Virus record (IMG/VR): IMGVR_UViG_3300018428_000188
Span: 1-23,615 of that record
DNA: 23,615 bases
DNA from: a virus
Direction: 5' to 3' (one strand)
Both the position numbers and the translations under genes were made by a program. The notes beneath the pieces are model-generated. The model saw nothing but the letters and a program-made list of their open reading frames with translations, was not told the origin of the DNA and ran no database searches. Below are positions 1-17,671 of this stretch, one piece after another (within the stretch, counting starts at the first letter, position 1; the number at the start of each line of letters is the position of its first letter).

Positions 1-3000
1 GCAAACACATTACCTGATGATCCTCCACTCACAAGAGTTTTATTAATATCATCATATGTTACAGCCGCAGCCTCACTATTAGCAAAACCTAAAACCGTAC
101 CAATTCCTTGTGCCCCTCCTAAAGCGGTATCATGTAAAATATTAGCGTTAGTTGCCGTGTCTTGAGGCTCAACCACCCCAAAGGCAATGTTAGTGTGTAA
201 ACTATTCCAATCTGTAGATGTAGTAGCAGTTCCCACAATATTGGCAGTGAAGCTAACGGTCTTAACTTGTCCTAAATCTCGCACCTGAGTTTGATACGTT
301 GCTCCTGAGCCAGCTAATAAATCAGTAGGTGACCCACTAATAGCTGCATATCCTGTAGATGTTCCATTTGCGTTATCTGTTGTACTTGAGTCAAAAGGAC
401 TATCTGCTTTGGCAAAAGAAAGTCCTCCTGTATTAGAATTAGCAAAACTTGGGAAGTTAAACTCACCTCTATTCGTATTTGGTATACCTGCAACCACATT
501 ACCTGATGGGGCATCTTCACTATATGCTTGTAACAAGAATAAACTAGATAGTTTAGTTGAAGTAAAGGTAACACCCACAACAGTATCACTCAAGTTACCA
601 CTAGTATCACGAGTTTTAGCTAAATAAGTAAAAGTTCCAAAAGTATCAATTGGAGCTGATTTCTTTGTTGAACCAGCACTAACAACAATATATTCCGTAG
701 CGGTCACAAAAGTACTAGCAAAATCTGCTTCTGCTAAAGTGCCGCTGGCACGTTTAATAACAATGTCTCGTAAATCTGGATCAAACAAAGAGCCATCCGC
801 ATTAGTTACATATGCCCATGAAAATTGCACTTCCTCTCCGACTTGAGCTACACTAAAATTAGTAACATTTTGTGGGGGAGTAGTTTTTCCTGCGATTGCT
901 TGACTTTTCTCTAAAGTAACTCCTCTGATTGTACCATTTAACGGAGTAACTCTAACAGTTACATTATTAACTCCTGATGCACTTCCTCTATCTACGTTGT
1001 TTATAGCAAACCTAATCTTGCCGTCAGGGTCAACTCCTTGTGCAGAAACTTTTACAGTTTGGAAGTTAGTTAAATCAGCAGCAGCTCCTCCAAGTTTATA
1101 TGATATTTCATAATCTGTAACTTCTTGATTTGTGATGTGATCAAAAATTATGGTAATTCTAACAGCCGCTCCGACAGTTTGTTCAATATATAAAGACTCT
1201 GTTATCTCTAAGTTTTCTACTTTTTGGATAGGAACTTGATTAATTAAAATGCTTTCTGTGGCGGGAGCACTTTTTCTCGCAGCACTATTTACATTTCTAG
1301 CTCGGAACACATAAATTCCTGGGTCTTGATTTTTCAATAATCTATCTGCGGGAAGTCCAATAGATTCAAAGTCAGTAGGAGTTTGTATTGAATAAACAGC
1401 GTTATTGGCTAAACTAAAACTTCCAGGGTATAAATTACTATCATAATCAAAAGTAAAAGAGCTACCAAAAACGTTATTAGTTTCTCCAATGGGGTCTGTA
1501 CTAATGTTGATAGCAGTAGTGCCTCTTGTATTAGCTAAAAGTTTTGACCCCAGTTTTATTCTGTATATATTATTAGCAGTTAAGGCAACGTTGTGAGAAG
1601 CACTGTCTGTAGAATAAGTGGTATCTACAACACTATATACATTTCCACTAAAGAATTGTAGATTATCTCCCTGCTCAACAGTAGGAACTGTATAATAATC
1701 AGCTTCTACTCTGCTAGTAACTTCATCATTTAGTCCTGTAATAGTCACAGAATCGTTACTTGAAGAAGTAAAATTCCAAGCAGATGTGGGTATTTGCAGC
1801 CCGTCTACGAACACTCTCACAGCTTCTTTAAAAGGAGCACCTCTTACCAATGGTTGAACAAAATTAGTGCCAGAAGTGAGATTACCTGTAATAACATTAG
1901 ATTGAATTTCTGTAAAGGAAGTTCCAGAAATATACATTTCTCTATTATCAAAAAATCTAGTGTCCACTAATTGATTAATTGTAACAAAGAAAGGAGGAGT
2001 AGGCAAAGAGTTAAATAGGGTTGACCCTCCTGAGTGTTCATTTTCAATTATAATACTACCGTTTGACTCACTTAAATCAGTTCCAATTACGTTTGCGGTA
2101 AAATTAACTAATCTTGTGCCATGATCAACAAAGCCAAAACCTCCTACAGAAGCAGCTCGTTGATTTAAATTAAAAGCAACTTTATCAAAACCTTTTAAAC
2201 CAGAATCAAAAGTAATCCCATCATTAACCTCTAAAACGTGTTTCATAAAGTTAGTGTCACGCACTTGATGTAGACTCGCTACTTTAAATACAACATTACC
2301 ATTTGAAGTATCTGTGACATCGGGATTACTAACTGCGTCACAAATAAGTCTAATTTCTCCAGTATTAGTTTTAAAGCCATTTTTACCTGATAGAATGGAG
2401 GGTTCTCCATTAGCTAAAGGTCCAGTATTAGAAGCCGTCATAGATTTAGGACTTATAGACGCATTGTTAGTGAGATAGGAAGTAAAAATAGCATCTGGAC
2501 GACCTATTTCTACTTCAGTTTGTAAAAATAAAGGATACCCGGTTTGATCAGTCGATACATCAACCAAAAGATCATGAGTAACAGTGCCGTCATCCAGCCT
2601 TCTAGGTCTAGCCTCTAAGCTTAATTCTGGTGTTGGAGGTTGAGTTAAGCTAGAAACAGTATCATCATATCTAACAGGAACATACGCTATTAGTGAATCA
2701 GAGTCCACATACACATTAGAAATATATTCAATCCCTGTAAGAGTTATTTCTTCGTCTTCATTTCTTCCAATGGTAGTTATTTTGAACAATCTATCATTTT
2801 GGTTATCATAAAAATTATCAGGGTTAACTTCTCCAAATGTCCATAAGTCCCCTTTTTGAGGAACATTATTAGCCAAGAAGTCTCCTCCATTAACAAACCC
2901 TTTAGTATTATAATTCCAACGAGCAATGGCTTTAACTTCTACTAAATCTACTCCTGAGTCAGCATTGCTTGTTGAAAGAGTTTGAAAAGCACTATTAGAA

Positions 3001-6000
3001 ACCAAGTAATAATCCACTCTATCAGAATCCATTTTAATTACTCTGACAGCTAAAGGTTGTGAATTAGCAGTAAAAGTGCTAGCAGTAAGAGCAGGGCTTG
3101 TAAAGTGTTCCAACAAAATGTTAGCATCACCAGAGATTGAAGAGTTTGCGGCTACTTTACCACCAAATCCGTAAGCTAATCCATGAGATTTGGTAGCGAC
3201 TGTAATAATATCTCCTACAGTTAAGTTGAGAGCGTCTGTTCCTGCTACAAATTCAACTTGTCTGCGCAAAAATTTAGAAGCAGCAATCATATACTGTCCA
3301 TACCTCGAAGCTTGACTTCTACGTGTTACTCCTGCTAAGTCAATTTGTTTGATATTTTCAATTTGATTTCTGTCTCTTAGTGCCTCTTGATCATCAATTC
3401 TTACAACTTCTCGTTTGAAGTGGTTTGAGGGTTCTACGTAAGAAACATCCACCCCTGTTATAATATCGCTTTCTTTCGTGCCAGAAAATTTTAATGAATC
3501 TTTTTTAATATTAGCATCATTAAAAACAGCTACAGGAACATCATCTGGCATATCAACATTTAAAGTTACTTTACCTCCAGAGTAATACAAAAGACCTCTA
3601 AAGGTTGAAGTAATTTTATTAATTGTGTCCATTACTTGAACATCTTCTTGAATACTTAAGTCAGTAATAAATCTTCTTTCTTTGACCTGAACCCCTCTAG
3701 GAAGCCCAACAAGAGTTTCTTTAACTGTTGAAAATAAATTTCTAGGTTTATGTCTAAAAGTTCCGTCTCCAAAACCATCTACTCCTGTAAATCTTCCCGT
3801 AGTGGTATCACAGCAATCACAATATTGTGCTACTTTATAGAACATAAATTTATCTATATTTTCTTCAGCAATTCCTAAACCATAAGTGTCATTGGTTAAA
3901 ATATCATATATTATCCAAACAGGGTTTTGTGTCCAGGAATAGGTAAAAGTACCATCCCATACCCCTTCATAAATAACAGGATTAACACCAAATTGTTCTG
4001 TAGTTAGTACAGCCGTTGATGTAGCAGTAACACCTGTTAAAGTATGGCTAGCTCCTACACCGTCATCAAGAGCAATCGCAGTACCATCAGCTGCTGCTTG
4101 TGCTGAAGCGGCTAATTTAATTCTATCAGTAGTACCAGTTTTAATAACAAAGTAATTAGTCCCGCTTGTTAATCCAGTAACATTAGTACCTCCCCCGTTT
4201 GAGTAAGTAACTTCATCTCCTGTAACAATAGCGCTATAAAAGTCAGAAGACACTGTGATTTGGTTTTTACCGTCAGCTTCAACTTCTGTAGCACCATTAA
4301 ACGTTTCAGTAGGAATAACACTTGTTAAAGTATGACTTGCTCCTACACCGTCTGAAATACTAATTGCAGTACCTCCAGTAGCATTTGCGAATGAAGTAGC
4401 TAATTTAACTCTATTAGTAGTACCATCCTTAATAATAAAATAATCAGTTCCTGACGTTAGACCACCAACATTAGTGCCTCCCCCATTAGCATATGTAACT
4501 TTTGAGCCAGTAACAATTACATCATAAAAAGCAGAAGCTACACTAATCTTATCGTCTGCAGCATCTTGCTCAACATCAGCAGCAGCATCAAAAGTTTCAG
4601 TAGGAATAACATCTGTTAAAGTATGACTAGCTCCTACCCCGTCTGAAATATTAATTGCAGTTCCTGCAATTGCGTTTGATAAAGAAGAAGCTAATTTAAT
4701 TCTATTGGTAGTACCTGTTTTAATAACAAAATAATCAGTTGCAGTAGTCAGACCTCCTACAGTTGTTCCTCCACCGTTTGCATAAGTAACTTTATTCCCA
4801 GTAACAATTACATCATAAAAAGAAGAAGCTACACTTATTTCATTCTTTCCATCAGCTTCAATTGCTGTAGCAGCATTAAAAGTTTCTGGAGAAGGAGCTG
4901 CAATAGTAATTGTTGGAGTGCTAGTATACCCCGTTCCTTGGTTCGTTACTATAAGTGCTGTAACTTTTCCTGTTGTAAGTGTCGCGGTAGCGGTAGCAGT
5001 AGAGCCACCACCACCACTTATAGATACCAAGGGAGCAGAAGTATATCCAGAACCTGCGTTTGTTATTGTTAAAGATTCAACTTTTCTTTCGGCGTTTCCA
5101 TCTATATTTGATTGTAGATAATAACCTTGCTGTGTGTATCCTATATTAGTAGATTCACCGTCTATGGAAATGGAACCTGTTTCAGGAACTTCGAGATGTC
5201 TCCAATCAATTTCTCCATCAGCTAAAGTAGGTTGATTATAATTAGTAGGAACTTTTACTAATAAGCCTTTGACTAAAGAAGTAAATGTTGGAACTCTTCC
5301 TTCATGCTCATTAAAAGACTTAATAGCATAACCAATTAACGCTGTTCTAGGATAGGCCATATCATCATATTCAATTTCATCCCAACCAACAAATTGAATA
5401 TTGTCTGCGACCCGGTTAGAATCACTATCCCCCGAGGTTTTTTCTACTGTAAATTTATATCCAGCTACGCTTCTATGTTCTTCAGGAATCACAATATCTC
5501 TTTGAAATTTGAATCTTGTGTTTGTTTTACCACTAACAGTGTGTTCGTCTGTAGCAATCTCAGTAGTTCCTGTGCTATCAAAAACAGTAATTTTTATACT
5601 CACACTAGTACCAGATACATTACCGTTTGCATCAGATTTTTGTAGTCCTTGAATAACAAAATTAAATCGTAAAGCGTCCCAGTCTTTTGCACTAGTACTT
5701 TGTAATGTGACTGAAGCTTTTGGAATGCCCTCAACATTACCATTTTTTAGTCCAACAGCATTATTTAAATTTTGAGGAGTAACTGTTTCAGCACCAAAGA
5801 CCTCCATAGCACCCTGAGTTAATGTTCCTGTAGTTGTTAAAGTTTTAAATACTTCATTATTCTCTGTCCCATCACCTTCAATATTAATTAAGTCATCTGC
5901 AACTCCTTCATTAATTTCTATATCTTGAGGACCATTAGGATTAATTCTATAAATAGGTCCCTCACCTAATGCAACAGTTAAAAACAAAATATCAGTAGAA

Positions 6001-6545
6001 AACAAAGTGTTTGGATCTTCACGGGCTGCCGGGGCTGCTCCGCCTCCGCCTTTTCCGCCACCACCTTTATTAGATAATCTGATTCCTTGACAAATATAGT
6101 TGTGATAAGTATTAACAGTTAAATTATAAACTGTTTCCTCTAAGTAATCCTCACTTTCAATTGATAAAATCTTACTAAAATCATTATCTTCTAAAGTTAA
6201 ATATTCTCCGACTGCCCAATCTTTAGCTTCTTTATATTCATTACTCTCATCATATAAATAATGATTATCTGTAACTCTCAACACACCTTTTTCGTGGGTG
6301 ATAGTTAAAATATAACCCACAGTTTCAGAGGGAACATGCTCCCAAGTTTTTTCTACAAAAGATACCCAACGTTTATCATTCTCATCAAAGCAATAAACCT
6401 TATCATTAATTTTTATGTCTTCAATAGGAATTTCGCCCCTAGTCGTAGATACTAGAGAGCCTGCAGGAAAACAGCCACCTTTGCTTCCTGAAATAAAAGG
6501 AGTTTGACCTCCCTGTACGTTAACATATTTTTTATAAACACTCAT
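1..6545 (-). CDS. J: gpJ-like central tail tip / host specificity protein, with intein-like Hint domain (3' end beyond window)
   Basis: Lambda gpJ-type protein, which forms the tail tip hub and the receptor-binding fibre. I read the frame from ATG at 6545 (ATGA overlap with the preceding I-like gene) to the window edge: 2181 codons without a stop, so the C-terminus is missing. Layout by residue: 1-24 Gly/Lys-rich leader; 25-159 Hint domain; 160-175 Gly/Lys/Ala linker; about 176-439 J N-terminal region (EDPNTLFSTD, then GLLVKVPTNYNQP); about 440-857 an insertion holding two GYTS repeats and three 96-97 residue repeats; 858-1120 J core (YEGVWDGTFTYSW, WIIYDILTNDTYGLG, then DVSYVEPSNHFKREV and GVTRRSQASRYGQ, typical of the Phage-tail_3 region); beyond 1120 beta-rich segments with two fibronectin III-like units near 1765-1990 (TTPPQNVTNFSVAQ). 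The J assignment is firm from motifs and gene order; receptor specificity cannot be inferred. Confidence 0.93.
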   Translation of the reverse strand, partial: MSVYKKYVNVQGGQTPFISGSKGGCFPAGSLVSTTRGEIPIEDIKINDKVYCFDENDKRWVSFVEKTWEHVPSETVGYILTITHEKGVLRVTDNHYLYDESNEYKEAKDWAVGEYLTLEDNDFSKILSIESEDYLEETVYNLTVNTYHNYICQGIRLSNKGGGGKGGGGAAPAAREDPNTLFSTDILFLTVALGEGPIYRINPNGPQDIEINEGVADDLINIEGDGTENNEVFKTLTTTGTLTQGAMEVFGAETVTPQNLNNAVGLKNGNVEGIPKASVTLQSTSAKDWDALRFNFVIQGLQKSDANGNVSGTSVSIKITVFDSTGTTEIATDEHTVSGKTNTRFKFQRDIVIPEEHRSVAGYKFTVEKTSGDSDSNRVADNIQFVGWDEIEYDDMAYPRTALIGYAIKSFNEHEGRVPTFTSLVKGLLVKVPTNYNQPTLADGEIDWRHLEVPETGSISIDGESTNIGYTQQGYYLQSNIDGNAERKVESLTITNAGSGYTSAPLVSISGGGGSTATATATLTTGKVTALIVTNQGTGYTSTPTITIAAPSPETFNAATAIEADGKNEISVASSFYDVIVTGNKVTYANGGGTTVGGLTTATDYFVIKTGTTNRIKLASSLSNAIAGTAINISDGVGASHTLTDVIPTETFDAAADVEQDAADDKISVASAFYDVIVTGSKVTYANGGGTNVGGLTSGTDYFIIKDGTTNRVKLATSFANATGGTAISISDGVGASHTLTSVIPTETFNGATEVEADGKNQITVSSDFYSAIVTGDEVTYSNGGGTNVTGLTSGTNYFVIKTGTTDRIKLAASAQAAADGTAIALDDGVGASHTLTGVTATSTAVLTTEQFGVNPVIYEGVWDGTFTYSWTQNPVWIIYDILTNDTYGLGIAEENIDKFMFYKVAQYCDCCDTTTGRFTGVDGFGDGTFRHKPRNLFSTVKETLVGLPRGVQVKERRFITDLSIQEDVQVMDTINKITSTFRGLLYYSGGKVTLNVDMPDDVPVAVFNDANIKKDSLKFSGTKESDIITGVDVSYVEPSNHFKREVVRIDDQEALRDRNQIENIKQIDLAGVTRRSQASRYGQYMIAASKFLRRQVEFVAGTDALNLTVGDIITVATKSHGLAYGFGGKVAANSSISGDANILLEHFTSPALTASTFTANSQPLAVRVIKMDSDRVDYYLVSNSAFQTLSTSNADSGVDLVEVKAIARWNYNTKGFVNGGDFLANNVPQKGDLWTFGEVNPDNFYDNQNDRLFKITTIGRNEDEEITLTGIEYISNVYVDSDSLIAYVPVRYDDTVSSLTQPPTPELSLEARPRRLDDGTVTHDLLVDVSTDQTGYPLFLQTEVEIGRPDAIFTSYLTNNASISPKSMTASNTGPLANGEPSILSGKNGFKTNTGEIRLICDAVSNPDVTDTSNGNVVFKVASLHQVRDTNFMKHVLEVNDGITFDSGLKGFDKVAFNLNQRAASVGGFGFVDHGTRLVNFTANVIGTDLSESNGSIIIENEHSGGSTLFNSLPTPPFFVTINQLVDTRFFDNREMYISGTSFTEIQSNVITGNLTSGTNFVQPLVRGAPFKEAVRVFVDGLQIPTSAWNFTSSSNDSVTITGLNDEVTSRVEADYYTVPTVEQGDNLQFFSGNVYSVVDTTYSTDSASHNVALTANNIYRIKLGSKLLANTRGTTAINISTDPIGETNNVFGSSFTFDYDSNLYPGSFSLANNAVYSIQTPTDFESIGLPADRLLKNQDPGIYVFRARNVNSAARKSAPATESILINQVPIQKVENLEITESLYIEQTVGAAVRITIIFDHITNQEVTDYEISYKLGGAAADLTNFQTVKVSAQGVDPDGKIRFAINNVDRGSASGVNNVTVRVTPLNGTIRGVTLEKSQAIAGKTTPPQNVTNFSVAQVGEEVQFSWAYVTNADGSLFDPDLRDIVIKRASGTLAEADFASTFVTATEYIVVSAGSTKKSAPIDTFGTFTYLAKTRDTSGNLSDTVVGVTFTSTKLSSLFLLQAYSEDAPSGNVVAGIPNTNRGEFNFPSFANSNTGGLSFAKADSPFDSSTTDNANGTSTGYAAISGSPTDLLAGSGATYQTQVRDLGQVKTVSFTANIVGTATTSTDWNSLHTNIAFGVVEPQDTATNANILHDTALGGAQGIGTVLGFANSEAAAVTYDDINKTLVSGGSSGNVF
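4014..4880 (-). repeat. Three tandem ~290-bp repeats (96-97 residues each) inside gpJ
   Basis: Translated gpJ residues about 556-844 form three diverged copies starting at Phe556, Phe652 and Phe749. Each copy carries, in order, an ETF start, a (I/V)xVxSxFY segment, VTYxNGGGT, a GLT segment, YFxIKxGTT, IKLA or VKLA, and DGVGASHTLT. At DNA level the copies occupy roughly 4593-4880, 4302-4592 and 4014-4301. They resemble beta-rich repeats I know from marine phage and bacterial surface proteins; no enzymatic function is suggested. They are probably a stalk or binding module, and the count could vary by recombination. Confidence 0.85.
4902..5078 (-). repeat. Two GxGYTSxP-type repeats inside gpJ
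   Basis: Residues about 490-548 hold two related units: LTITNAGSGYTSAPLVSISG followed by GGG, and then LIVTNQGTGYTSTPTITI. The consensus is a short hydrophobic strand, N-x-G-(S/T)-GYTS-x-P and a further strand, sometimes closed by poly-Gly. Such units recur in structural proteins of marine phages. They lie directly before the three longer repeats and belong to the same insertion in the J core. Confidence 0.75.
6069..6473 (-). other. Hint (intein-like / BIL-like) autoprocessing domain inside gpJ, residues 25-159
   Basis: A 135-residue insert sits between GSKGG and KGGGGKGGGG of gpJ. Block A starts with Cys25 (CFPAGSLVSTTRGEIPIEDI, then KINDKVYCFDE), matching the intein/Hint N-terminus. Block B is RVTDNHYLY, with the TxxH pair Thr92 and His95. 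Block F is VYNLTVNTYHNYICQGI, with His148. The domain ends RLSN, with Asn159 in the block G position. There is no room for a homing endonuclease. Differences from a standard intein are Ser158 instead of the penultimate His and Lys160 instead of Cys/Ser/Thr at +1, as in bacterial intein-like domains. What is seen: the motifs and the clean boundaries. What is inferred: N-terminal thioester cleavage and possibly Asn-mediated C-terminal cleavage or non-canonical splicing. Confidence 0.88.
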
Positions 6546-7249
6546 GCTGCAAATTGCTCCGAAACTTTTATTAGATCGTTTTTTCCGTGATTAAATGTTT
6601 TAACATATCCAGATACTAAATGTCCACCAATTCTAGTCATACCATATCTCATTCCTACAGGGGTTCCTGTGCTAACAGTGGAAGTTAGTCCTGTGAATAA
6701 ATTGTTTTCTGTTCTTGAACCATCGTCTGTAAAAGTTCTATTATTAGAGTTACTTTTAGGTGCGGATTGTACCATTGCCATTATTCCTTGTAATGCGATT
6801 GATGCGCCAAACATAGCTATTTGTGTAAAACTAATACCTACACTACCTATCGAAAAAGCAGTTGCTCCCATAGCTTTACCTAAGCCTGCTAGGCCCCCAG
6901 CAGCTAAACCACCACTAGCTATCACAGCAACAGCTACAATTGCTATTCCTATAGCTACCATAACGCCTCCTCTACCACCGCCCACAATAGAGGGAACTAA
7001 ATAATAAACTTCATCTTTTAACTTTTTGTTAGCTTGCACCTCTGACAAATCTACTCTTTTTTTGTTTTCATTTAAGATAAAAAAATCAGTAGTTAAATTA
7101 TTTTTACTTTGTTTAATAAACTCTGCAAATTTTGGAAAAGAATTTACTAAAAAGCTCATTAAAGAATAATAGTCTTTTACTTCCACTTTTAGTTCTTTCT
7201 CATTTTTAAAATATTTTGTGGCGTTTTGGTGTATAAATAAAGTAATCAT
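6542..7249 (-). CDS. I: Tail assembly protein I-like, second copy (ubiquitin-like N-terminus)
   Basis: A 235-residue protein of the lambda gpI (TAPI) type, whose members act at the tail tip between K and J. Residues 1-88 form a predicted beta-grasp, ubiquitin-like domain (ITLFIHQNATKYF, then SFPKFAEFIKQ). It ends in a Gly-rich IVGGGRGG, followed by a long Gly/Ala/hydrophobic stretch (about 96-165) that could be membrane-active. The C-terminal segment carries ENNLFTGLTS, RYGMTRIGGHLVSGYVKT and the terminal LIKVSEQFAA. The last ten residues equal those of the upstream paralogue, so the pair arose by duplication. ATGA overlaps link it to both neighbours, which implies translational coupling to gpJ. 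Assignment rests on family features and synteny; the exact role of gpI is not settled even in lambda. Confidence 0.82.
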   Translation of the reverse strand: MITLFIHQNATKYFKNEKELKVEVKDYYSLMSFLVNSFPKFAEFIKQSKNNLTTDFFILNENKKRVDLSEVQANKKLKDEVYYLVPSIVGGGRGGVMVAIGIAIVAVAVIASGGLAAGGLAGLGKAMGATAFSIGSVGISFTQIAMFGASIALQGIMAMVQSAPKSNSNNRTFTDDGSRTENNLFTGLTSTVSTGTPVGMRYGMTRIGGHLVSGYVKTFNHGKNDLIKVSEQFAA

Positions 7250-7917
7250 GCGGCAAATTGTTCTGATACCTTAATCAGAGCCCCTTTTCCATGATTAGTG
7301 GTTTTTATATACCCGCTCACTAATTGTCCTGCAGATCGCACCTGTCCATAAATTATAGGCACATTGTTGTTACTAGAGGTAGTGTTTGTTAATCCGTTAA
7401 ATAAATTATTATCCACCCTTTCTTGAACATCAGGAGTTTGTTTCTCAGGAGGTTTAGGTGTTTTTGTAAATAACCCCATGACTCCGCTCAATACCATATT
7501 TAGTCCAGTAGAAAACGCTAGTTTTCCTAGCGTAGTTCCAAATAATTTTGTTGCACCAAGAGCAGGAAAAGCAAAAGGAGCTGCAATTAACGCAATTCCA
7601 ATAGCTATTTGTATAAAACTTCCTTTTTTACCTCCAGCACCCCCAAGAACAGGACTAATATATATCTCTTCGTGGTTAGCCCTAAGTTTATTATATTGAT
7701 AAATTTCACTTTTTATAAGTTTTTTATCCTTATCTAACAAACAAAGATTCTCAGAAATGTTTTCAGTTTGAATTTTTTTAATATACTCTCCAAACTTGGG
7801 AAAAAGATTACACACAGCAGAAATTAAAGAATCAAAATCATCACACACAACAGTATGAGTTTTGATTCCAGTTGTATATTTTAACAAAGAATTATGAAAA
7901 GTTAATGTTATTTTCAT
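7246..7917 (-). CDS. I: Tail assembly protein I-like, first copy (ubiquitin-like N-terminus)
   Basis: A 223-residue protein, the size of lambda gpI. Residues 1-90 form the ubiquitin-like domain (KITLTFHNSLLKYT, NLFPKFGEYIKKI) ending in SPVLGGAGGKK. A hydrophobic Gly/Ala stretch follows (about 100-150), then a Pro/Lys linker (KTPKPPEKQTPD) and the conserved end (NNLFNGLTNT, VPIIYGQVRSAGQLVSGYIK, LIKVSEQFAA). The N-terminal domain has diverged more from the other copy than the C-terminus has, which suggests different partners for the Ub-like parts but a common anchoring surface. It starts by ATGA overlap with the JAMM gene. Phages usually have one I gene, so the tandem pair is odd. Confidence 0.84.
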   Translation of the reverse strand: MKITLTFHNSLLKYTTGIKTHTVVCDDFDSLISAVCNLFPKFGEYIKKIQTENISENLCLLDKDKKLIKSEIYQYNKLRANHEEIYISPVLGGAGGKKGSFIQIAIGIALIAAPFAFPALGATKLFGTTLGKLAFSTGLNMVLSGVMGLFTKTPKPPEKQTPDVQERVDNNLFNGLTNTTSSNNNVPIIYGQVRSAGQLVSGYIKTTNHGKGALIKVSEQFAA

Positions 7918-8282
7918 ACTAGATGTTTTTCAGTAAACTCATCGAATTTAAGCGCGTCTATATTTTTATCTAACCAGTAGATATAAAATTTATTATTAAA
8001 ACCGACGATAAACTTAAACTCTTCAAAAACTGCTCCTTTTTTATCTTCTTCACTAGGAAGAGGGTTTTCTTCCCCTGGATGTGAGTGAAATATGCCCCAA
8101 CAATTATCTTCATGTTCAAAAAGACTTTCTGGGTCAACAACAAAACTATCTTTAGGAAAGGGGCTTATATTTTCACATGCTACATACTTAAAATCTTTTG
8201 TAATTAGTCCACAACACTCTCTAGGATACTCCGCTTGCGCATGTTTTCCCATATCACTAATTAATTTTGAAAATAAAGTCAT
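7914..8282 (-). CDS. K: JAMM/MPN metalloprotease-like tail assembly protein (N-terminal half of lambda K)
   Basis: A 122-residue Mov34/MPN/JAMM domain protein. Visible residues are Glu22 in YPRECCGL (activating Glu), His66 and His68 in FHSHPG (zinc ligands), and Ser77 and Asp80 in LPSEED. The spacing from His68 to Ser77 has eight residues between, one more than the usual HxHx7SxxD. In lambda this domain is fused in protein K to NlpC/P60; here it is a separate gene just after the NlpC/P60 genes and before the ubiquitin-like I genes. Its start overlaps the previous gene by 26 bp and has an AAGGGG ribosome site. A later Met11 start (8252) would lie past the upstream stop but would shorten the first helix, so I prefer Met1. 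Likely acts in tail tip maturation; the substrate is unknown. Confidence 0.86.
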   Translation of the reverse strand: MTLFSKLISDMGKHAQAEYPRECCGLITKDFKYVACENISPFPKDSFVVDPESLFEHEDNCWGIFHSHPGEENPLPSEEDKKGAVFEEFKFIVGFNNKFYIYWLDKNIDALKFDEFTEKHLV

Positions 8283-8709
8283 CTGACACCCCTTCCCATC
8301 TAAAGACTCCTAAAGTATATTGTTTATAATATTTTCCGTATGGAGAAATCCACGATTTTCTATCTATCATAGTTTGTAAAAGTTTATTTTTTTCTACTAA
8401 CAAGGCGCAGTGATTTATTTTATTAGTAGAGCCGATACTCATAATGGCTACATCAAAAGTATCAACTTCATTTAATGTTATTTCTTTCCATCCTAGCCTA
8501 GTATTTCTAAACTCGGTAAAGGGGTTAGTTTCTATTTTATTATACCAGTCTTGGTCTATAATATTACAGAAATCTTGAGTTGAATAAGGAATCACAATGT
8601 TTTTTTGTTCTCTATATACTAATCTAATTAGGTTTAAACAGTCTATTCCTTTTTCAGGGTCATTTCCTAAATGTTTATAAGGAAACCCTGCATATTTATC
8701 ATACCACAT
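8257..8709 (-). CDS. NlpC/P60-family peptidase, tail tip assembly (C-terminal half of lambda K)
   Basis: A 150-residue NlpC/P60-type cysteine peptidase domain. The catalytic Cys24 lies in KGIDCLNLIRLVY and the catalytic His100 in KINHCALLVEKNKLLQTM, with a preceding strand FDVAIMSIG. The third catalytic residue cannot be fixed by eye. In phage tails this fold occurs in K-like proteins and is thought to cut peptidoglycan or a tail protein during tip assembly or DNA entry. It begins one base after the preceding gene's stop, with GAGGGG upstream, and overlaps the JAMM gene by 26 bp. It looks catalytically complete, unlike its more diverged neighbour upstream. Confidence 0.82.
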   Translation of the reverse strand: MWYDKYAGFPYKHLGNDPEKGIDCLNLIRLVYREQKNIVIPYSTQDFCNIIDQDWYNKIETNPFTEFRNTRLGWKEITLNEVDTFDVAIMSIGSTNKINHCALLVEKNKLLQTMIDRKSWISPYGKYYKQYTLGVFRWEGVSDDFIFKIN

Positions 8710-8710
8710 T

Positions 8711-9130
8711 TTACCCCTCTTTACGTCTTAAAATAAAGTGTATTTTATCTCTCCACTCTTGGTTTAAGGCAGTTATTCTAGAACTAGTTTCTTCCTCCAC
8801 ATGTATAAAATTATTATTTGTTGTATACATGCCAAAATGAATTGGTCTATTCTTTTTTGACTTAAATAATATTACATCATATTCTTTTATTTTTGTCAAA
8901 TCAACTTTTATTGCGTTTAAGTCAACCCACTCTTCTATTTTTTTTAAAGTTATTTTAAACTTCCAGCGACTACCCTCTATAGGTTTTCCTTCTAATAAGT
9001 TTAAATGAGTCCATAAACTTTGAAAAACCTCAGAATTTAATTCTTCTTTATATATCTTTTCAATTAATGTAATACAATTTATATTTTGATAATCGTGTTT
9101 TATTCCTAAATATTTTATGTAATCGGTCAT
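8711..9130 (-). CDS. Second, divergent NlpC/P60-like protein
   Basis: A 139-residue protein with the same ground plan as the next gene: a Cys-bearing helix early on (Cys19 in NINCITLIEKIY), a strand YDVILFK, and a His-bearing strand (His98 in RPIHFGMYTTNNNFIHVEE). The usual Gly-x-Asp-Cys is replaced by Asn-Ile-Asn-Cys, so activity is less certain, although Cys and His are both kept. Probably a paralogue of the 8257-8709 gene or the C40 domain of a K-like protein that diverged toward a structural role. It overlaps the gpL-like stop by one base (TAATG). The NlpC/P60 fold call is by motif only; a fold prediction would confirm it. Confidence 0.66.
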   Translation of the reverse strand: MTDYIKYLGIKHDYQNINCITLIEKIYKEELNSEVFQSLWTHLNLLEGKPIEGSRWKFKITLKKIEEWVDLNAIKVDLTKIKEYDVILFKSKKNRPIHFGMYTTNNNFIHVEEETSSRITALNQEWRDKIHFILRRKEG

Positions 9131-11112
9131 TATTTAGGAATAGTCCTGCCTGTTCCAGGAAATCCTCCAAAGTGTATAGTATTGTTTCTAATCTGACAAG
9201 ATTCAAAACTTTTTCCACACTCATCTTCTCCAATACTACCTGCTGTTTGGTTATTGGCAGCGATTGGATTCGTATTTGCGGTTAGAGCAGTACCAGGTAT
9301 AGTCCCGCCCGCAGGACCTGGGTATTGGCACTCTTCACCTTTATATATCCACTGACAAGTATTTTTATAATATTTTCTACGAGGCAAAATTAACTTAAAA
9401 AATTGCAACCAACTAGTTAAACTAAATGAGGCTACTCTTTCATCTAGATTTTGTAGAGAATCAATTTTAAAATTATCTTCTACATATGCCTCATCATCCG
9501 CATCTGCATTTTTTATTAGTAAGTGATCGCCCTGCCCAAGGGTTAGGGCTGTGTTAGTGAAAATAAATCTCTCTTCTTCGATTGCTTGAATCGTGGCAAC
9601 AAAAGCATTATCCCTAACAAAAACTTCATCTCCTACTCTGTATGGAAGAGTTGTTGTCATTTCCAACACGTTTGAATAAGCAGCCCTAACTTTAGAGTAC
9701 TCAGGCCAATAATCCAAGAAGTTAGCAAAAGTTGATTGTATTTCTACTACGCCCCCTAATAAATCTCTGGAATCCATTTTTTCTCTTTTCCAAGTGCCGT
9801 TAACAACTTCCGTTGTGGTAATAGTAAAGCTTGCATTGTCTACTCCATAAGAATCTCTTACAGTTTGATTAAAATTTAGTCCATTACTTCTGGCACGGCT
9901 CAATACATCAGTATGTTCCTGATCTAGGTAAGTTGCTCCTGTCGGGATAGTTCTAGGGTCAATTCCTGTAACAACTTCTCCATTAACTACAGCAAAACAA
10001 GCATTAGAAGTATTATTTCCCACTAAGTCAGGGTTTTCACAAAGTTGTGTAATCAATCCATCAAAGTTAGATATATCAACAGTAACCTCATTAATAGTTC
10101 CTGATGAATCTATATCTATACCACCACTATTAATTGGCATTGGGGTATAGTTAATCCCTCCAAACTGTACGTTGTAAGTTACGTCCGTGTTCAAATCTCC
10201 TCTAACTTCTGCAAATCTTAGAGGGAACCCGTCTGGCCAACTTCTACCTTCTCCCTCTCCTGTAGGATTGCCATTAGGGTTAGCAGGATACCACTCTCCC
10301 GGATAATAAATTGTATATAACCTAACTAAAGGATTTTGGACAAAAGCATTTCTTTCTCTAATGTAATTAGAATTAGCTACGTTAGTAATTTGAAAAGTAG
10401 GTCCATCAATTTGTTCTGCAAAACTTTGTGCTGTAAAAGGAATTGACTCTGTATTTCCTGTATCTACTCTAACCTCAATAGTAGAAGTGTTTGCGCTAAT
10501 CCAATTATTATAATCTACTTGATAGCCATATGCATCGGCAGGTTCTGGTAATTGTTGAACAATTATAGGAGCTGCTAACCTAATTAAAATATGACTACTA
10601 GTTTCTATAATATTACGAAAACTAGCTTTTGTTAGGTCTACGTTTTCTTCTGTGGTTAAAATTTCAGGAATAGGGTTAATATCAAAACCTGTGTTCCCTA
10701 AAGTGGAACTAGGAAAGTTAATAAGACTTTTATCTAATCTTGAACCACTAACAAAAACTTCAAACGTATCCGCAGTAACATTTGATAAACTTAACGCCTC
10801 TACAGGCAAAGAAAAGGTGTTCGTACTACCATCAATTTGAAAAGAGTTACCATTAACGGAAAGAGATGAGGTGTTACTATATGTTACCGTAGCGTTATCT
10901 GAAGAAACAATGTTGGTAACCGATCTCGCATTTTCATTGGCTACGAATTCTTGATGAATATTAGCCACTTTAACTTTAATATTAGAGTTAGCGTAATCAA
11001 CATGAACTACATGAGCTGAAGTATTTGTGGTATTAGACAATATAGAATCACCAGAAATCAATACTTCTGGTTTGTCTACTGTTAAAATATAATCATAAGT
11101 GCGGGTAGTCAT
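9130..11112 (-). CDS. L: gpL-like minor tail tip protein with predicted iron-sulfur cysteines, enlarged N-terminus
   Basis: Lambda gpL family (about 230 residues there), here 660. The last ~220 residues are the recognisable L part: SREL-like SRDLLGGVVEI, FKLILPRRKYYKNTCQWIYK, then Cys586, Cys595, Cys632 and Cys639 as C-x8-C and C-x6-C, followed by HFGGFPGTG. In lambda gpL these cysteines hold a [4Fe-4S] cluster; the same is inferred here. Residues 1-440 are extra and beta-rich. About residues 86-133 resemble a module in the M-like protein (FQIDGSTNTFSLP, FEVFVSGSRLD). A central Gly/Pro-rich part (PNGNPTGEGEGRSWPDG) and two further Cys (near CENPDL and NACFAV) are unassigned. It joins the M-like gene by a TAATG overlap. 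Confidence 0.85.
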   Translation of the reverse strand: MTTRTYDYILTVDKPEVLISGDSILSNTTNTSAHVVHVDYANSNIKVKVANIHQEFVANENARSVTNIVSSDNATVTYSNTSSLSVNGNSFQIDGSTNTFSLPVEALSLSNVTADTFEVFVSGSRLDKSLINFPSSTLGNTGFDINPIPEILTTEENVDLTKASFRNIIETSSHILIRLAAPIIVQQLPEPADAYGYQVDYNNWISANTSTIEVRVDTGNTESIPFTAQSFAEQIDGPTFQITNVANSNYIRERNAFVQNPLVRLYTIYYPGEWYPANPNGNPTGEGEGRSWPDGFPLRFAEVRGDLNTDVTYNVQFGGINYTPMPINSGGIDIDSSGTINEVTVDISNFDGLITQLCENPDLVGNNTSNACFAVVNGEVVTGIDPRTIPTGATYLDQEHTDVLSRARSNGLNFNQTVRDSYGVDNASFTITTTEVVNGTWKREKMDSRDLLGGVVEIQSTFANFLDYWPEYSKVRAAYSNVLEMTTTLPYRVGDEVFVRDNAFVATIQAIEEERFIFTNTALTLGQGDHLLIKNADADDEAYVEDNFKIDSLQNLDERVASFSLTSWLQFFKLILPRRKYYKNTCQWIYKGEECQYPGPAGGTIPGTALTANTNPIAANNQTAGSIGEDECGKSFESCQIRNNTIHFGGFPGTGRTIPK

Positions 11113-12743
11113 TAATCATAAACCTCTTTTAGTTTAAAATTAACTGTATAATAGTTAGTTTGTAAACTAGCATTTGACGAATCCGAGAAAACATGAGAAA
11201 CCTGTAAAGGACCATCAAATCTTGATTGTATTGTACCATTTTCATTGATGTGTGTCAAATCAAAAGTGAATGTCTCAAAAGACCCGTTCCTTGCTATATA
11301 GAACTGCTCAATTGCGTGTTTTTCTACTCCACTAACATTTGTATAAGTTAGATCAAAATCACGTTTAGAGCGACGACTTCTTAGTCTTCTTTTTTCATAG
11401 CCTCCTTGTGATTCAAAATTAATTACATCAAATTCTCGATTAGTAGAAAATCCACGATCTGGTTTTCTATCTGCCATTGAGGTAAATCTATCAAAAGTTT
11501 CAACGTCACTAGAAAATCTTCTAATTACCAAAACATCATCAGACTGAAGAGGGGTATGAATTTTAGAGGCTGGAATGGTAGGTGTTTCAAAAGTATCTGT
11601 TCTAACAGGACTATTATTAACAAATCTAAAAGAATCTATAAAACCTTTTAAATGTTCCTTAGTATCTCCTGCGGTAGCAATACGTCCTATTTCAAAAGCA
11701 CCGGTAGGGTTGATTGTATAGGTGCTACTAGCGTCAAACTGAACCGCGGAACCATTGACAAATAAAGCAGTGTTTCCAGTTTCTTTGTTATGAGCAACAG
11801 CAACATGAGTAAAAGTATCTGCACTAATAGAGCCACCTTGTATATCTGCTACAACCGAGCCGCTCTCTTTTACTAGCCACTGCATTTTATTATTGGCTAG
11901 TCTACTAAGTTTTACAAAATTATTATCATCTGTTCTATGAGAAAAAACTGTATTAGCCTGGCTTGCATCTTCAAAACGAGCAAAACATTCAATACAAAAA
12001 CTACCTTCATATTTAAAATCGGCACTGTCCGCAAAACTAATTAAATCACCTGTTCCATCAAAAGAAGCAGAAGAGTTTCCAAATTGTTTCGTGCTACTTA
12101 GCTCAACATCTCCAGTGACGGTGGCTGCTCCACGGGCTTTATCGCTTTCGTCCGTAAAGTTTGTGTCAAAATTTAAAAGTAAAACTGTATCTTCAAAAGT
12201 ACCAATACTAATACCAGCATTACCTAAATTAAGTGCCGTGTTACCTGTGGTTACTTCAGGAGCAGAATTTATTGCTGGATGAAAATACTGACTAGAAGCT
12301 TGTTCTACACCAGAAACTGTAACTAGTAATTGGTCCGTGCTATTTACATTTTCTTGAAAAGGTAGAGAAAAGTTTTGAGTTACCCCATTAATTGCATATG
12401 TGTTGGCTTGAACCACTGAGGCAGTATTACTGTATTCAACGTATTTTACTGTTTGACCACTTCTAGTAGTTCTATATCTGGTGGGGACTGTAATAACTTT
12501 TAAACTTAAAGAGGAAGCATTAGGAGCGGTCACAAAAGTAACTGTAGCCCCAGAATTGCTAATTGAATAAGTAGAGGTAGCCTGTTCAATACCATCTACA
12601 GTAGCGACCACTTCTCCAACATGCTCAACAGTATAAGGATGAAGATTAAAATTAGTGGCACTTCCTGTGCTTGAAAAAGATAAAGTGTCGATAGTATCAA
12701 AAGCTGTTGTGGTTATAGTTGCGTCTGTAGGATAAGTAGCCAT
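11112..12743 (-). CDS. M: gpM-like distal tail protein with inserted LamG domain
   Basis: A 543-residue protein in the M position (after tape measure, before L). The last ~113 residues match the size and look of lambda gpM/minor tail proteins (RDFDLTYTNVSGVEKHAIEQ, FYIARNGSFETFTFDL, YYTVNFKLKEVYD). About residues 25-85 and 110-160 are two beta modules (VVATVDGIEQATSTYSIS; LLVTVSGVEQASSQYF). Residues about 185-395 form a LamG/concanavalin-like domain: DTVLLLNF, STKQFGNSSASFDGTGDLIS, FTHVAVAH, LFVNGSAV, GFIDSFRFVN. LamG domains often bind glycans, so a role in surface recognition is possible but inferred. TAATG overlap with the tape measure stop. Confidence 0.82.
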   Translation of the reverse strand: MATYPTDATITTTAFDTIDTLSFSSTGSATNFNLHPYTVEHVGEVVATVDGIEQATSTYSISNSGATVTFVTAPNASSLSLKVITVPTRYRTTRSGQTVKYVEYSNTASVVQANTYAINGVTQNFSLPFQENVNSTDQLLVTVSGVEQASSQYFHPAINSAPEVTTGNTALNLGNAGISIGTFEDTVLLLNFDTNFTDESDKARGAATVTGDVELSSTKQFGNSSASFDGTGDLISFADSADFKYEGSFCIECFARFEDASQANTVFSHRTDDNNFVKLSRLANNKMQWLVKESGSVVADIQGGSISADTFTHVAVAHNKETGNTALFVNGSAVQFDASSTYTINPTGAFEIGRIATAGDTKEHLKGFIDSFRFVNNSPVRTDTFETPTIPASKIHTPLQSDDVLVIRRFSSDVETFDRFTSMADRKPDRGFSTNREFDVINFESQGGYEKRRLRSRRSKRDFDLTYTNVSGVEKHAIEQFYIARNGSFETFTFDLTHINENGTIQSRFDGPLQVSHVFSDSSNASLQTNYYTVNFKLKEVYD

Positions 12744-15700
12744 TATGATAAGTTTCCTCTAATTGATCTTCTAATTGGTCCGTTATTTTGCATATCTCTA
12801 GTAACAATATCCACAATGATAGCTTCTGGAGTAACTTGGACATTTGGTTTACCTTCTGATTCTTGTGGGGTTCCTTGGTTATTCATGTTAACCACTACAT
12901 TAGGACTATTAGGCATAGTTCCATGAGCATTCATGGCATTTAGGGCGGGACCGCCAATTGCTTTTGCCATTGGTTTGCGAATGACGAATTCGCCAGGCTC
13001 TAACATGGCGGGAACTCTGTCTCGTAATGCTCCTCCTGCAGCCATATGTCTTACAACACCTCCCGAAGCTGCCGGAAAGAAAGAACTAGCCAACATTTTT
13101 ATACCCTCGCCAGCTATCATTCCCACAATACTTCCAACTGCGCTTCCTGCAGGTCCACCAATTAGTCCACCAGCTAAGGCTCCCAACCCTGCTCCAGCCA
13201 TTCCAGCAAAATCAGCAAGGTTTTCAAAACTGAATCCTAAGTCAGAGGATTTAGTCGCAAGTACTCCTTGCTCCCCGGCAAGACTCTGCGATGTTAATAT
13301 CCCATCTTCATCAGCACTTATTTGTTTTTTTGTAGTGTTTACTGCCTCAGTTTGTTGTTTATCAAGTTTACGTAGACTTCTAGTTTGCCCTGCCAAATCA
13401 AGAGAAGTACCATCTAAGCCCGCGTCAACTTGTTGCACTAACACGGGAGAACCAATTCCTCCAATTCCTCCTACTACCTGAACTCGTTGAACATCCATAC
13501 CTAGACCTTCAAAGATACTCATTTGTTTATCAAAAATATCTTTTAAGTTATTCTGTGCTGTTTGAGCAATTTGTTGACTTACTCCAGTTTGGTTTTGAAT
13601 AGCTTGCACCACCGCTTGTTGAGGGCTAGCTCCACCACCAAACATGCTTGCTAAATTGCCCATCTGTCCTTTAATAAATTCTTTGATAGGATTAATAACA
13701 AACTGTTCAGTAACACTAGTAGTTACATCTTCTAAAATTCCAACAAACAAATCTTTAACGCCTTGCTTGAAGTTTTCCATAGTAAGAGTGCCTTCTCGGA
13801 TAGCTCCGAAGAAGTCTTCGACAGCACCTCCTAGACGGTTTTGTATTTTTTCACTAATATCATCTAAGACGTTACGAATAAGATCACGCTCTCTATCTAG
13901 AGCATCTTGTCTGGCTTTAGCATTATCCTGAGCCGCTGCTTTTTCTCTTGCAAGTGCTTCTAGTTTAGCTTTTTCGTTAGCATCAATGATGTTAAACTCT
14001 TTAAACTGTCCATCAATCTTTTTAGTTAGTAGTTCAGCTTCATTTTCTAAAGCTTTTCGGGCAGTAGCATTTGCAGTCCTAGCGATTTCAGCTTCTACTG
14101 ATTGTCTCTTTTGAATATTGAGTAAAAGAGCAGAGTTAGCTGATTGGTCAAGTTGATTAATTCTCGTTTTTGAAGCGAATTCATCTGTTATGGCCTGATT
14201 ACGTTCTAAATAACCTTGTCTGGCTAATGCATTATTTTTATCTATTTGTTTTTCTAATTCCGCAAAATCAGCAACAATTTTAGCGGCTTTAAACTGTGTA
14301 GGATCTACAATTAAATCTTGTCTATTTGATGCTGCTAGAAACGCGTTAATAGTTTTAGTAAAAAGGTTTTCTTGATTTAAAGCTTCTTGGAACTTCTCGA
14401 CCGTATCTACTTGAATTTTTAAATTGTTAAGTTCTAATTTTTGTCTTGCTACAGCCGCTTGCCTAGCCTTTTCAGCAACGTCATTTTGTGATTGAGCTGC
14501 TCTAGCTTGTGCACCAATTAATTCTGCTTGAATTTTTAATCTCTCACCCTCTTGCCTAATTTTGTTTTGCTCCATTGCAGCGTTAGCTTCGGCAATCACA
14601 CGCTCCTGTTCCTGAACGCGCACTAAAGTAGCTAACTCTTCTTGTTTTGCCGCCCTCTCGGCCATGTTTTGTCGAATAGCTTCTCTTAAATTTTCTCTTG
14701 CTGTTTCTGCTTCAAATTTAGCAACTCGTTCTTTTTCTGCAATTATCTTTAACTGATTATCAAGTTCTCTATTGATAATTTCTTCTTGCTTTTGACGAAT
14801 TGACTCTAGTGTGTTTAAATTTGGAAACGCTTGCATGTCAGCAAGTTGTGCTTGCGCACCACGAATTCCAGATTCTCTTCCACCTTGTGCACCTGCAGCC
14901 GCACTACGCATTCCTATTTCAGCCAACTCTCGTTGTTGCATAAGAGCCTCATGATTAAGCTGATTCATTTGTTTTTGAAAATCTAATTCTTGTTGTTTTG
15001 CTTTGCCCAATTCTTCTTGTAGTTTTTTCTGAGCTTCGAGTAGTTTTACTGCCTCTGCCGCAGCTGTGTTTTCACGTCTATCGGTAGCTTGTTGTTCTGA
15101 TAGTCTTAATTGAATTCTTTTGGCAGTGTTTTGCTCCTTTAAAATAGCTAGTTGTCCTCTAAGTTTTTCTTCTACCTTTTCCTCAGCATCCGCTCTTTTT
15201 TTGATTATTGCAGGAAGTTGTAAAGACATGCCATACAATATTTTCATTGCTTTATTAGCAGCGTCCCTTCTCTCTTTCGAAACTGCATCTTGAGCATCTC
15301 CAGTTGCAGCTCCCCCTATAATAACTTGTTGTAAGCGAGCGAATTGAGCAGCTTCTTTACCCAAACCCTCTAAGTTATTCATTACTCCTGAGAAAGCTGC
15401 CGCGTCTGCTGCTTTAATAAACTTACCGAAATTATCTGTAAGACCTTTTGTAATAGCTTCTGCGGTTTTTAACTCTCTTAGTCGTCCATCTACCTTTTCA
15501 ATTTCAGCAGCCATTTCTGCTAAAGCTTTAGCAGCTTCTCTAGTAGGAGGACCCATTGCATGAAGTTTTTCAAAATTTGATCTCATTCCCGATAATTGCT
15601 TAGAAAGTTTTTCTGAAGAAGTACTGCCCTCTAAAAATTCTTTATTGGCTGCTCTTAGTACGTTCGCAAATAAGGTAACACTTGTAATTACCTCAGTAGT

Positions 15701-17671
15701 TCTTTCACTTAAATTTCTGTTTCCTTTTGCGGCTGCCTCAGTGTCTGCCCCAAAAGCTTGAAGAACATTTATAACGCCCATCCCTTGCTTTTCAAGGTCC
15801 TTAAAAGCATCAGTAACTTGTTGACCACTAATTCCTGCTAGTCTAGCGGCTGGTCCGACTATTAAAGCAGCATCTCCCAATTCTATGAGACCCGCTATAG
15901 TTTGTTCAAGCACTAATTTTTTAAGAGCATCATCAGTACCCTCAAGCTCTTTTTGTAGTGCGGCTATTCCTTTTGCAGCTAGTGTTCCAACTCCGTGCAT
16001 CTGCATCAGAGGCTTTACTGTTTCTTCAAAAAACTTCGCTGCATTTCTTCCAGCGCGCCCAGACCCATCTATAGCCCTTAAGAGACCTTTGTTTAAGGTG
16101 CCTGCCACATCCTCAGAGACTCCATCCAACTCTTCTAATCTCTTTTTTGTGATATTGGCTCGAACAGCTAGTATTTCGAATGCTTTACCTCCTCCAGCCA
16201 TAGTCACAGCGAGTCCTGCTACAGTTACTTTTAAATTTTCTGCTCTAACAGACATATCTGTAAAAAATTCTTTTATCTCTTGTATAATATCTACATCAAA
16301 AAAGCTTCCTACTAGTTGTGCAACAGAAATTGCGGCAAATAACCCACCTACAGCCATGCGTAATCCTGCAAATGCTACAGTTAGCCCTCTAACAGCGAGA
16401 CCTGTAACATTTGCAATTGCGCTATATGCAGCGGTTCTGCCTCCTGCTTTGGTAATAGCAGCATTATTTAGTCGTATAACATCATTTAAAACTTTGTATC
16501 TTTTACTATTTGAATCAAGTAAATCTCTATTCTTTTCATAAACCTTATTAGCTGCTTTAAGGGCAGCAACATTCTTAAGTTGTCCAGATTCTTGCGCTTT
16601 TATAGTTGATGCAAGTTCTCGGGCCTCCGCGGGGTTTTGTTGTCCTGCGATTCTGCTTTGAAAACCAGATAAACCTCTTCTTTCTCTTGCACCCCCAAAA
16701 GCTCCTACTACTCGCTCAATATTAGCAGACGCTATGGTTGCCTTTTCCGCAGCACCCGTTGCAAATGTTCCTAGTTTAGCTAAAGCATTTGTCGCAAATC
16801 CCCCTATTACTTGTAAAGCTTTACCAAAAACTAAACTTATAATAGCTAAGAAAGCTAATAAGGCATTATTACCTTCTCCCAAGAAATCTACAAAGGGTTT
16901 TAAAATAGTAGTGACTCCTTGCCCAAATCCAATAGCTAGCTCTTGAATCTGAACTAAGAATTTTTCAAAACTAGCTTGAGCACTTTCAACATTTGTAGCA
17001 ATAGCAGAAAACTTTTTCTGACCTTCTTCAATCACAGCATTAGCAAAAGCTTGTCGTTTTTCATAGTTAGTTAAGCTTGAAGCAGCGACATTTAGTTTAG
17101 CCGCATACGCCTCTACAGCAGGGTCAATTCTAGCGAAAATACCAAGTTCGTCTAAAAGTTCTGGTTCTAACTTAGCCGTACCTCTGACTACTCGTTGTAG
17201 TGCATCAGTTAAATTTCTACCCAACGCTCTTGAAGCTTTAAAAGAAATATCAGTAAGGTCTTCAATTTGATCTCTTCCTAAACCAGCAGACAACGCAATG
17301 TTAACGTTCTGTGCAGCCTCTTCTAGAGCGATTTGGCCGTCTGTAATGTTTTTTACACTCGCCAATATCTGATCACCAGATTGACCAATTTCTGCAGCTA
17401 AAGCTCTTGTACCCCTGATAACTGTCTCAAACTGGGCAACTTTTTGTAGTGCCGCAAAAGCCTGTTGTAAAGCAAAAACGTTAGCAGCAGCACCCGCGTA
17501 GGCAGCAACAAAACCACCCAAACCAGACGCTTGAGCAGAAAATTGTCTACTTGTTGACGCACTAGCTTGCCCCAGACGTGTTTGAGCGCGACCAACATTT
17601 TCAATGTCTTTGGCCGCTTTCTGGGTTCCTTTAGTTTCAACTGCAATTTGTATTTTGCTTTTTTGTGCCAT
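12743..17671 (-). CDS. H: Tail tape measure protein
   Basis: A 1642-residue tape measure protein: it sets tail length and is ejected with the DNA. The position (after G/G-T chaperones, before M), the size and the Ala/Gln/Glu/Lys-rich helical composition fit. Hydrophobic segments occur near residues 270-295 (NALLAFLAIISLVFGKAL), 435-460 (MAVGGLFAAISVAQLVG) and close to the C-terminus (GAGLGALAGGLIGGPAGS), a usual pattern for membrane passage. The central region (about 830-1250) is heptad-like coiled coil. The C-terminus has AAGGALRDRVPAMLEPGEFV, a motif frequent at tape measure ends. No lysozyme or peptidase domain is visible. At about 0.15 nm per residue the tail would be roughly 245 nm. SD AAGGA lies in the end of the preceding gene, two bases separate stop and start. 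Confidence 0.95.
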   Translation of the reverse strand: MAQKSKIQIAVETKGTQKAAKDIENVGRAQTRLGQASASTSRQFSAQASGLGGFVAAYAGAAANVFALQQAFAALQKVAQFETVIRGTRALAAEIGQSGDQILASVKNITDGQIALEEAAQNVNIALSAGLGRDQIEDLTDISFKASRALGRNLTDALQRVVRGTAKLEPELLDELGIFARIDPAVEAYAAKLNVAASSLTNYEKRQAFANAVIEEGQKKFSAIATNVESAQASFEKFLVQIQELAIGFGQGVTTILKPFVDFLGEGNNALLAFLAIISLVFGKALQVIGGFATNALAKLGTFATGAAEKATIASANIERVVGAFGGARERRGLSGFQSRIAGQQNPAEARELASTIKAQESGQLKNVAALKAANKVYEKNRDLLDSNSKRYKVLNDVIRLNNAAITKAGGRTAAYSAIANVTGLAVRGLTVAFAGLRMAVGGLFAAISVAQLVGSFFDVDIIQEIKEFFTDMSVRAENLKVTVAGLAVTMAGGGKAFEILAVRANITKKRLEELDGVSEDVAGTLNKGLLRAIDGSGRAGRNAAKFFEETVKPLMQMHGVGTLAAKGIAALQKELEGTDDALKKLVLEQTIAGLIELGDAALIVGPAARLAGISGQQVTDAFKDLEKQGMGVINVLQAFGADTEAAAKGNRNLSERTTEVITSVTLFANVLRAANKEFLEGSTSSEKLSKQLSGMRSNFEKLHAMGPPTREAAKALAEMAAEIEKVDGRLRELKTAEAITKGLTDNFGKFIKAADAAAFSGVMNNLEGLGKEAAQFARLQQVIIGGAATGDAQDAVSKERRDAANKAMKILYGMSLQLPAIIKKRADAEEKVEEKLRGQLAILKEQNTAKRIQLRLSEQQATDRRENTAAAEAVKLLEAQKKLQEELGKAKQQELDFQKQMNQLNHEALMQQRELAEIGMRSAAAGAQGGRESGIRGAQAQLADMQAFPNLNTLESIRQKQEEIINRELDNQLKIIAEKERVAKFEAETARENLREAIRQNMAERAAKQEELATLVRVQEQERVIAEANAAMEQNKIRQEGERLKIQAELIGAQARAAQSQNDVAEKARQAAVARQKLELNNLKIQVDTVEKFQEALNQENLFTKTINAFLAASNRQDLIVDPTQFKAAKIVADFAELEKQIDKNNALARQGYLERNQAITDEFASKTRINQLDQSANSALLLNIQKRQSVEAEIARTANATARKALENEAELLTKKIDGQFKEFNIIDANEKAKLEALAREKAAAQDNAKARQDALDRERDLIRNVLDDISEKIQNRLGGAVEDFFGAIREGTLTMENFKQGVKDLFVGILEDVTTSVTEQFVINPIKEFIKGQMGNLASMFGGGASPQQAVVQAIQNQTGVSQQIAQTAQNNLKDIFDKQMSIFEGLGMDVQRVQVVGGIGGIGSPVLVQQVDAGLDGTSLDLAGQTRSLRKLDKQQTEAVNTTKKQISADEDGILTSQSLAGEQGVLATKSSDLGFSFENLADFAGMAGAGLGALAGGLIGGPAGSAVGSIVGMIAGEGIKMLASSFFPAASGGVVRHMAAGGALRDRVPAMLEPGEFVIRKPMAKAIGGPALNAMNAHGTMPNSPNVVVNMNNQGTPQESEGKPNVQVTPEAIIVDIVTRDMQNNGPIRRSIRGNLS

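Follow-up and report, generated by a model that had tools for sequence, protein, structure and literature searches.

Phage inteins have been described mostly in enzymes that act in DNA metabolism or packaging, and those of mycobacteriophages are reported to lie in terminases and non-structural genes (PMC3706429). Bacterial intein-like (BIL) domains have no nucleophile at the +1 position, and those studied mostly cleave (PMC4031507, PMC7664689); type A BILs can also splice, in which case a freed amine attacks the thioester (PMC4031507). BIL2 of Tetrahymena forms isopeptide bonds to lysine, and zinc moves its block B His to the active position (PMC8616854). In Hedgehog proteins, the general base lies at Hint position 46 (D303), where His is functional too (PMC9163320).

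We analyzed a window of 23,615 nucleotides (IMG/VR record IMGVR_UViG_3300018428_000188), the minus strand of which encodes a lambda-type tail-tip module: L (9130–11112), two NlpC/P60 proteins, a JAB protein, two gpI-like proteins and a gpJ-like protein. All features given below are on this strand. The gpJ-like tail-tip (central fibre/host specificity) protein occupies positions 3–6545, with 2181 aa within the window, and is truncated by the window end. Its start codon (ATG) overlaps with the stop of the gpI-like gene upstream, which ends at 6542. Pfam matched this ORF to Phage-tail_3 (8e-16) and FNIII-A_GpJ (1e-14), PHROG 31 'central tail fiber J' matched at 1e-92, and tblastn with the protein led to annotated host specificity proteins J. 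By these matches, the Hint-bearing host protein is gpJ. An ORF of 1642 aa adjoining the tail-tip genes (12743–17671) had no Pfam match at E 0.1.

The earlier note had assigned residues 25–159, in the N-terminal part of gpJ, to a Hint domain lacking an endonuclease, from the motifs Cys25, Thr92-x-x-His95, His148 and Asn159, and had proposed structure prediction as a check. All four motifs were present, the second reading Thr92-Asp-Asn-His95, and the 135 residues correspond exactly to positions 6069–6473. Pfam searches with the full gpJ-like protein returned Hint (PF01079, 2e-6), PT-HINT (PF07591, 2.9e-6) and Intein_splicing (PF14890, 3.6e-5), and all 52 aligned relatives matched a Pfam Hint family. 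A solved bacterial BIL domain, 2lwy, was matched by phmmer at 1.4e-4 and by a profile of the 52 sequences at E = 4.1e-19; by these comparisons, the Hint match is far beyond chance. AlphaFold2 run on the 52-sequence alignment gave a pLDDT of 90.5 and a pTM of 0.85, superseding a model from 12 close sequences (pLDDT 68), and the solved folds nearest to it were Tetrahymena BIL2 (6y75) and the C. thermocellum BIL (2lwy). The domain thus combines the Hint fold with Cys1 and the block B T..H that characterize the Hint superfamily, and the endonuclease-free Hint in gpJ is borne out.

Residue conservation was scored in 32 non-redundant Hints (<85% identity). Ten positions were invariant in all 32: C1, F2, I17, V26, H46, T68, N70, H71, I102 and the terminal N. 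In the window, these include Cys25 (6471–6473), the predicted nucleophile of the N-S acyl shift, and His70 (Hint position 46; 6336–6338). They also include Thr92, Asn94 and His95 of block B (Thr92-Asp-Asn-His95; 6261–6272) and the terminal Asn159. His70 was missing from the motifs listed previously, whereas His148 of block F (6102–6104), which was listed, is kept in only 28 of the 32, with Gln or Ala in the other four. The BIL2 zinc ligands His48 and His125 align with His46 of the gpJ Hint and with its block F His. By analogy, the invariant His70 may be a general base or a metal ligand; its equivalence with the Hedgehog position reflects shared numbering and profile coverage, not a residue-by-residue alignment.

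The residue before Cys1 is Gly in every Hint. Upstream of it, the N-extein (residues 1–24, MSVYKKYVNVQGGQTPFISGSKGG; 6474–6545) carries a conserved P.[IV].G..GG motif. At the other end, the Hint of the window closes with Ser158-Asn159 (6069–6074), as in the rest of its clade, whereas His-Asn closes most relatives (51/64 Hints; 28/32 non-redundant). Seven residues upstream of the terminal Asn, a Cys (Cys152 in the window; Cys152 to Ser158, 6072–6092) occurred together with the penultimate Ser in 13/13 members of the window clade and in none of the 51 others. The C-extein starts with Lys160 (+1) and the linker KGGGGKGGGG (6039–6068). Across the family, the +1 residue is Lys in 50/64 and Gly in 14/64, never Cys, Ser or Thr.

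Among IMG/VR viral contigs, we identified 82 distinct gpJ N-termini, of which 64 carry the Hint and 18 lack it. The Hint lay at the same position in all 64 and measured 129–135 aa, which leaves no room for a homing endonuclease. The phages bearing it are an environmental, largely uncultured family; in the viral structure library, an unannotated 'Putative gp62 [uncultured virus]' came closest, at 34% identity. The earlier note had called this placement unusual, and its rarity held in 50,697 annotated phage records, where similar Hints occurred in helicase, terminase, polymerase, thymidylate synthase and a few other proteins, never in gpJ. One Hint-like stretch was seen in a protein annotated as tape measure, likewise a structural part of the tail, in Gordonia phage BearBQ (OR253908.1, L200). 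The one gut 'phage' match resembling the gpJ Hint, MT836326.1, turned out to encode an RHS-repeat protein whose Hint is of the ordinary pretoxin type. No prophage with a window-type gpJ was found in the genomes of 84,980 prokaryote species scanned with a J-body profile, the single match covering 24 residues, and no second Hint was found in 10 larger contigs of Hint-gpJ phages. The literature searched, with subscription journals largely outside its scope, described no Hint, BIL or intein in gpJ or another receptor-contact tail protein, an absence that is not proof.

Compared with type A BILs, such as that of C. thermocellum (2lwy), the gpJ Hint has the same fold (TM 0.86 by target), Cys1, block B His and terminal Asn, and likewise has no +1 nucleophile. 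It differs in residing in a phage tail-tip protein with empty sites and a fixed insertion point, as in inteins; in His46, which is Arg in 2lwy; and, in the window clade, in its Ser-Asn end. Type A therefore fits apart from that end, and type B, which has no similarity to intein block G, was set aside given a block G-like end with terminal Asn in all members. BIL2 of the Tetrahymena BUBL1 polyubiquitin locus (6y75, 6tmm) has the fold and the Gly before Cys1 in common with the gpJ Hint. However, BIL2 lies between ubiquitin-like domains, and the gpJ Hint is flanked by a peptide of ~13–27 residues and by gpJ, so a BUBL-type assignment was rejected.

Class 1 mini-inteins (gp41-1, Npu DnaB) have in common with the gpJ Hint the fold, Cys1, block B TxxH and terminal Asn, as well as clean in-frame insertion with intein-less alleles and cassette exchange. 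They differ in that the gpJ Hint has no +1 Cys, Ser or Thr and occupies a Gly-rich linker of a structural protein rather than an enzyme active site. Because the +1 residue is always Lys or Gly, the sequences place the gpJ Hint as BIL-like and not a canonical class 1 intein. A class 3 intein (no Cys or Ser at position 1, WCT motif, block F Cys) was ruled out by the invariant Cys1. The Hedgehog Hog domain has the Hint fold and, by numbering, a catalytic residue at position 46, but the gpJ Hint has no sterol-recognition region and does have a terminal Asn, followed by the gpJ linker and body. PT-HINT domains of polymorphic toxins are linked to it by PF07591, which matches all 52 members; the gpJ Hint, however, lies near the N-terminus, with gpJ rather than a C-terminal toxin domain after it. 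Phage tailspikes carry C-terminal self-cleaving chaperone domains that act by trimer folding. These are likewise self-processing domains of a phage tail protein, putatively so in gpJ, but their fold is unrelated and their position C-terminal. Its way of working, Hint-type splicing or cleavage, has firmer support than assignment to any one named class. What is new is the host protein in which this BIL-like Hint, inserted much as an intein would be, resides: the Hint is conserved, intact in its catalytic residues, and at a fixed site of a receptor-contact hub protein.

In gpJ proteins without the Hint, an N-terminal peptide of the same type is joined directly to the Gly/Lys linker (..P.I.GAKGG/KGGGG.., the slash marking the junction), which identifies the Hint as a clean insertion. 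Two such empty sites read MATKQFTTHSNLLIPDIRGAKGG joined to KGGGGSDPR (L114) and MTHRRYIKQQDILIPQISGAKGG joined to KGGGGGSTF (L160). The P.[IV].G motif precedes the junction in 31/32 non-redundant proteins with the Hint and in 18/18 without it. Since motif and junction are the same, removal of the Hint would restore an ordinary gpJ. On a tree of the gpJ body, three changes account for the presence or absence of the Hint, which is mostly kept within lineages and was gained or lost a few times.

One contig records an exchange. L068 and L058 are 100% identical in the N-extein and 96% in the body but only 69% in the Hint, and the L068 Hint shares 98% identity with its L066 counterpart. One switch point falls at the codon for Cys1 and the other close to the Asn end, each placed with a precision of a few bases. 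In these metagenome contigs, the Hint alone appears to have been replaced by a foreign one, between two gpJ lineages. The L068 Hint has Gly-codon-rich flanks on both sides, which could provide homology for recombination. The N-peptide tracks the gpJ body more closely than it does the Hint (Mantel 0.48 vs. 0.24). In close pairs, it is under purifying selection (pN/pS 0.17–0.33); the ratios are from close pairs only, as synonymous sites over all pairs are near saturation and uninformative.

We consider the chances slightly better than even that this BIL-type Hint excises itself from gpJ and rejoins the flanks. We infer the chemical steps, and the processing of gpJ itself, from the observed fold, conservation, fixed site, empty sites and Hint swap. 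In the first step, Cys25, aided by Thr92 and His95, would convert the Gly24-Cys25 bond to a thioester. Cyclization of Asn159 would then free Lys160, whose amine (that of Gly in some relatives) would attack the thioester with no Cys, Ser or Thr at +1. The product would be a normal chain, GSKGG-KGGGGKGGGG, of the sequence type of Hint-less gpJ, and excision would probably precede or accompany tail assembly. The amine of Gly or Lys would be a reasonable acceptor within a flexible Gly linker. Several points count against splicing: the prevalence of cleavage among the BIL domains studied; the Ser-Asn rather than His-Asn end of the window clade; and the site in a linker rich in Gly, which might accommodate the domain unspliced. 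Lys+1, Gly+1, Ser-Asn, His-Asn and empty sites together form a natural series for splicing without a +1 nucleophile.

The main rival is plain double cleavage, in which both flanks are cut, the N-peptide and the Hint are released, and gpJ starts at Lys160. This is the usual outcome for domains of this kind, and the residues for both cleavage chemistries are conserved; even so, we regard it as unlikely. Whether or not a gpJ carries the Hint, its N-peptide is conserved, and the peptide stays attached in proteins that lack the Hint, which suggests that gpJ needs it. Rejoining is favoured over cleavage for this reason, and also because the N-peptide evolves more with the gpJ body than with the Hint and, among close pairs, shows purifying selection. 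The conservation could instead reflect a function as a free peptide or the cleavage reaction itself. By splicing or by autocleavage, many environmental phages may process their own protein in building the tail tip.

A conjugation reaction has a distinctly lower probability. Here, the Gly-Gly thioester of the N-peptide would pass to the side chain of a lysine, either within the KGGGGK linker or in a neighbouring tip protein, and form an isopeptide bond, as Tetrahymena BIL2 does. Such chemistry is consistent with BIL2 being among the nearest folds, with the His46 and block F His positions common to both, and with Lys at +1 or +6 in 64/64 Hints. The same module also contains gpI and JAB, for which a pairing of ubiquitin-like protein and peptidase has been proposed (PMC1779556). 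However, the linker Lys occurs in several Hint-less gpJ proteins too, and a Gly/Lys-rich linker accounts for it; the block F His is absent in 4/32; and the reaction has no known substrate. That the Hint is by analogy a conjugating device and not a parasite, placing the N-peptide on tail-tip lysines beside gpI/JAB, seems very improbable.

Excision with rejoining also bears on the cleavage proposed in the earlier note. Its Hint domain in gpJ stands, but N-terminal cleavage is probably half the story, since relatives with empty sites fit excision and rejoining better. N-terminal cleavage alone, or cleavage in the virion triggered by host contact, is very unlikely: the N-terminal catalytic residues are invariant, but the terminal Asn is equally so, and C-terminal cleavage therefore appears to be selected too; nothing points to a host-contact trigger. 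There is similarly little chance that the Hint is the relic of an intein, now inactive and retained as a spacer or structural domain, as its place in a Gly-rich, probably flexible linker and the loss of the penultimate His in the window clade would allow, given nucleophilic and assisting residues that are invariant even among Hints ~30–40% identical to that of the window and no degenerate Hint among the 82 distinct gpJ N-termini.

Other features of the tail-tip module were also recorded. At its end, the gpJ N-peptide (VP.I.G.GG type) looks like the terminus of the ubiquitin-like portion in the two gpI paralogues (LVPSIVGGGRGG and ISPVLGGAGG), the point at which JAB cleavage has been proposed (PMC1779556); this likeness is possibly a coincidence. 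The gpI-like genes (tail plug/assembly protein I) are tandem paralogues at 6542–7249 and 7246–7917, 36% identical. Across 32 loci checked, tandem gpI occurred only next to Hint-containing gpJ, and in part of those, with a single gpI at all Hint-less loci; ancestry alone may explain the association. The functions of lambda gpK are divided in the window (7914–9130) among one JAB protein and two NlpC/P60 proteins, all separate, and the order of these genes is kept in relatives.
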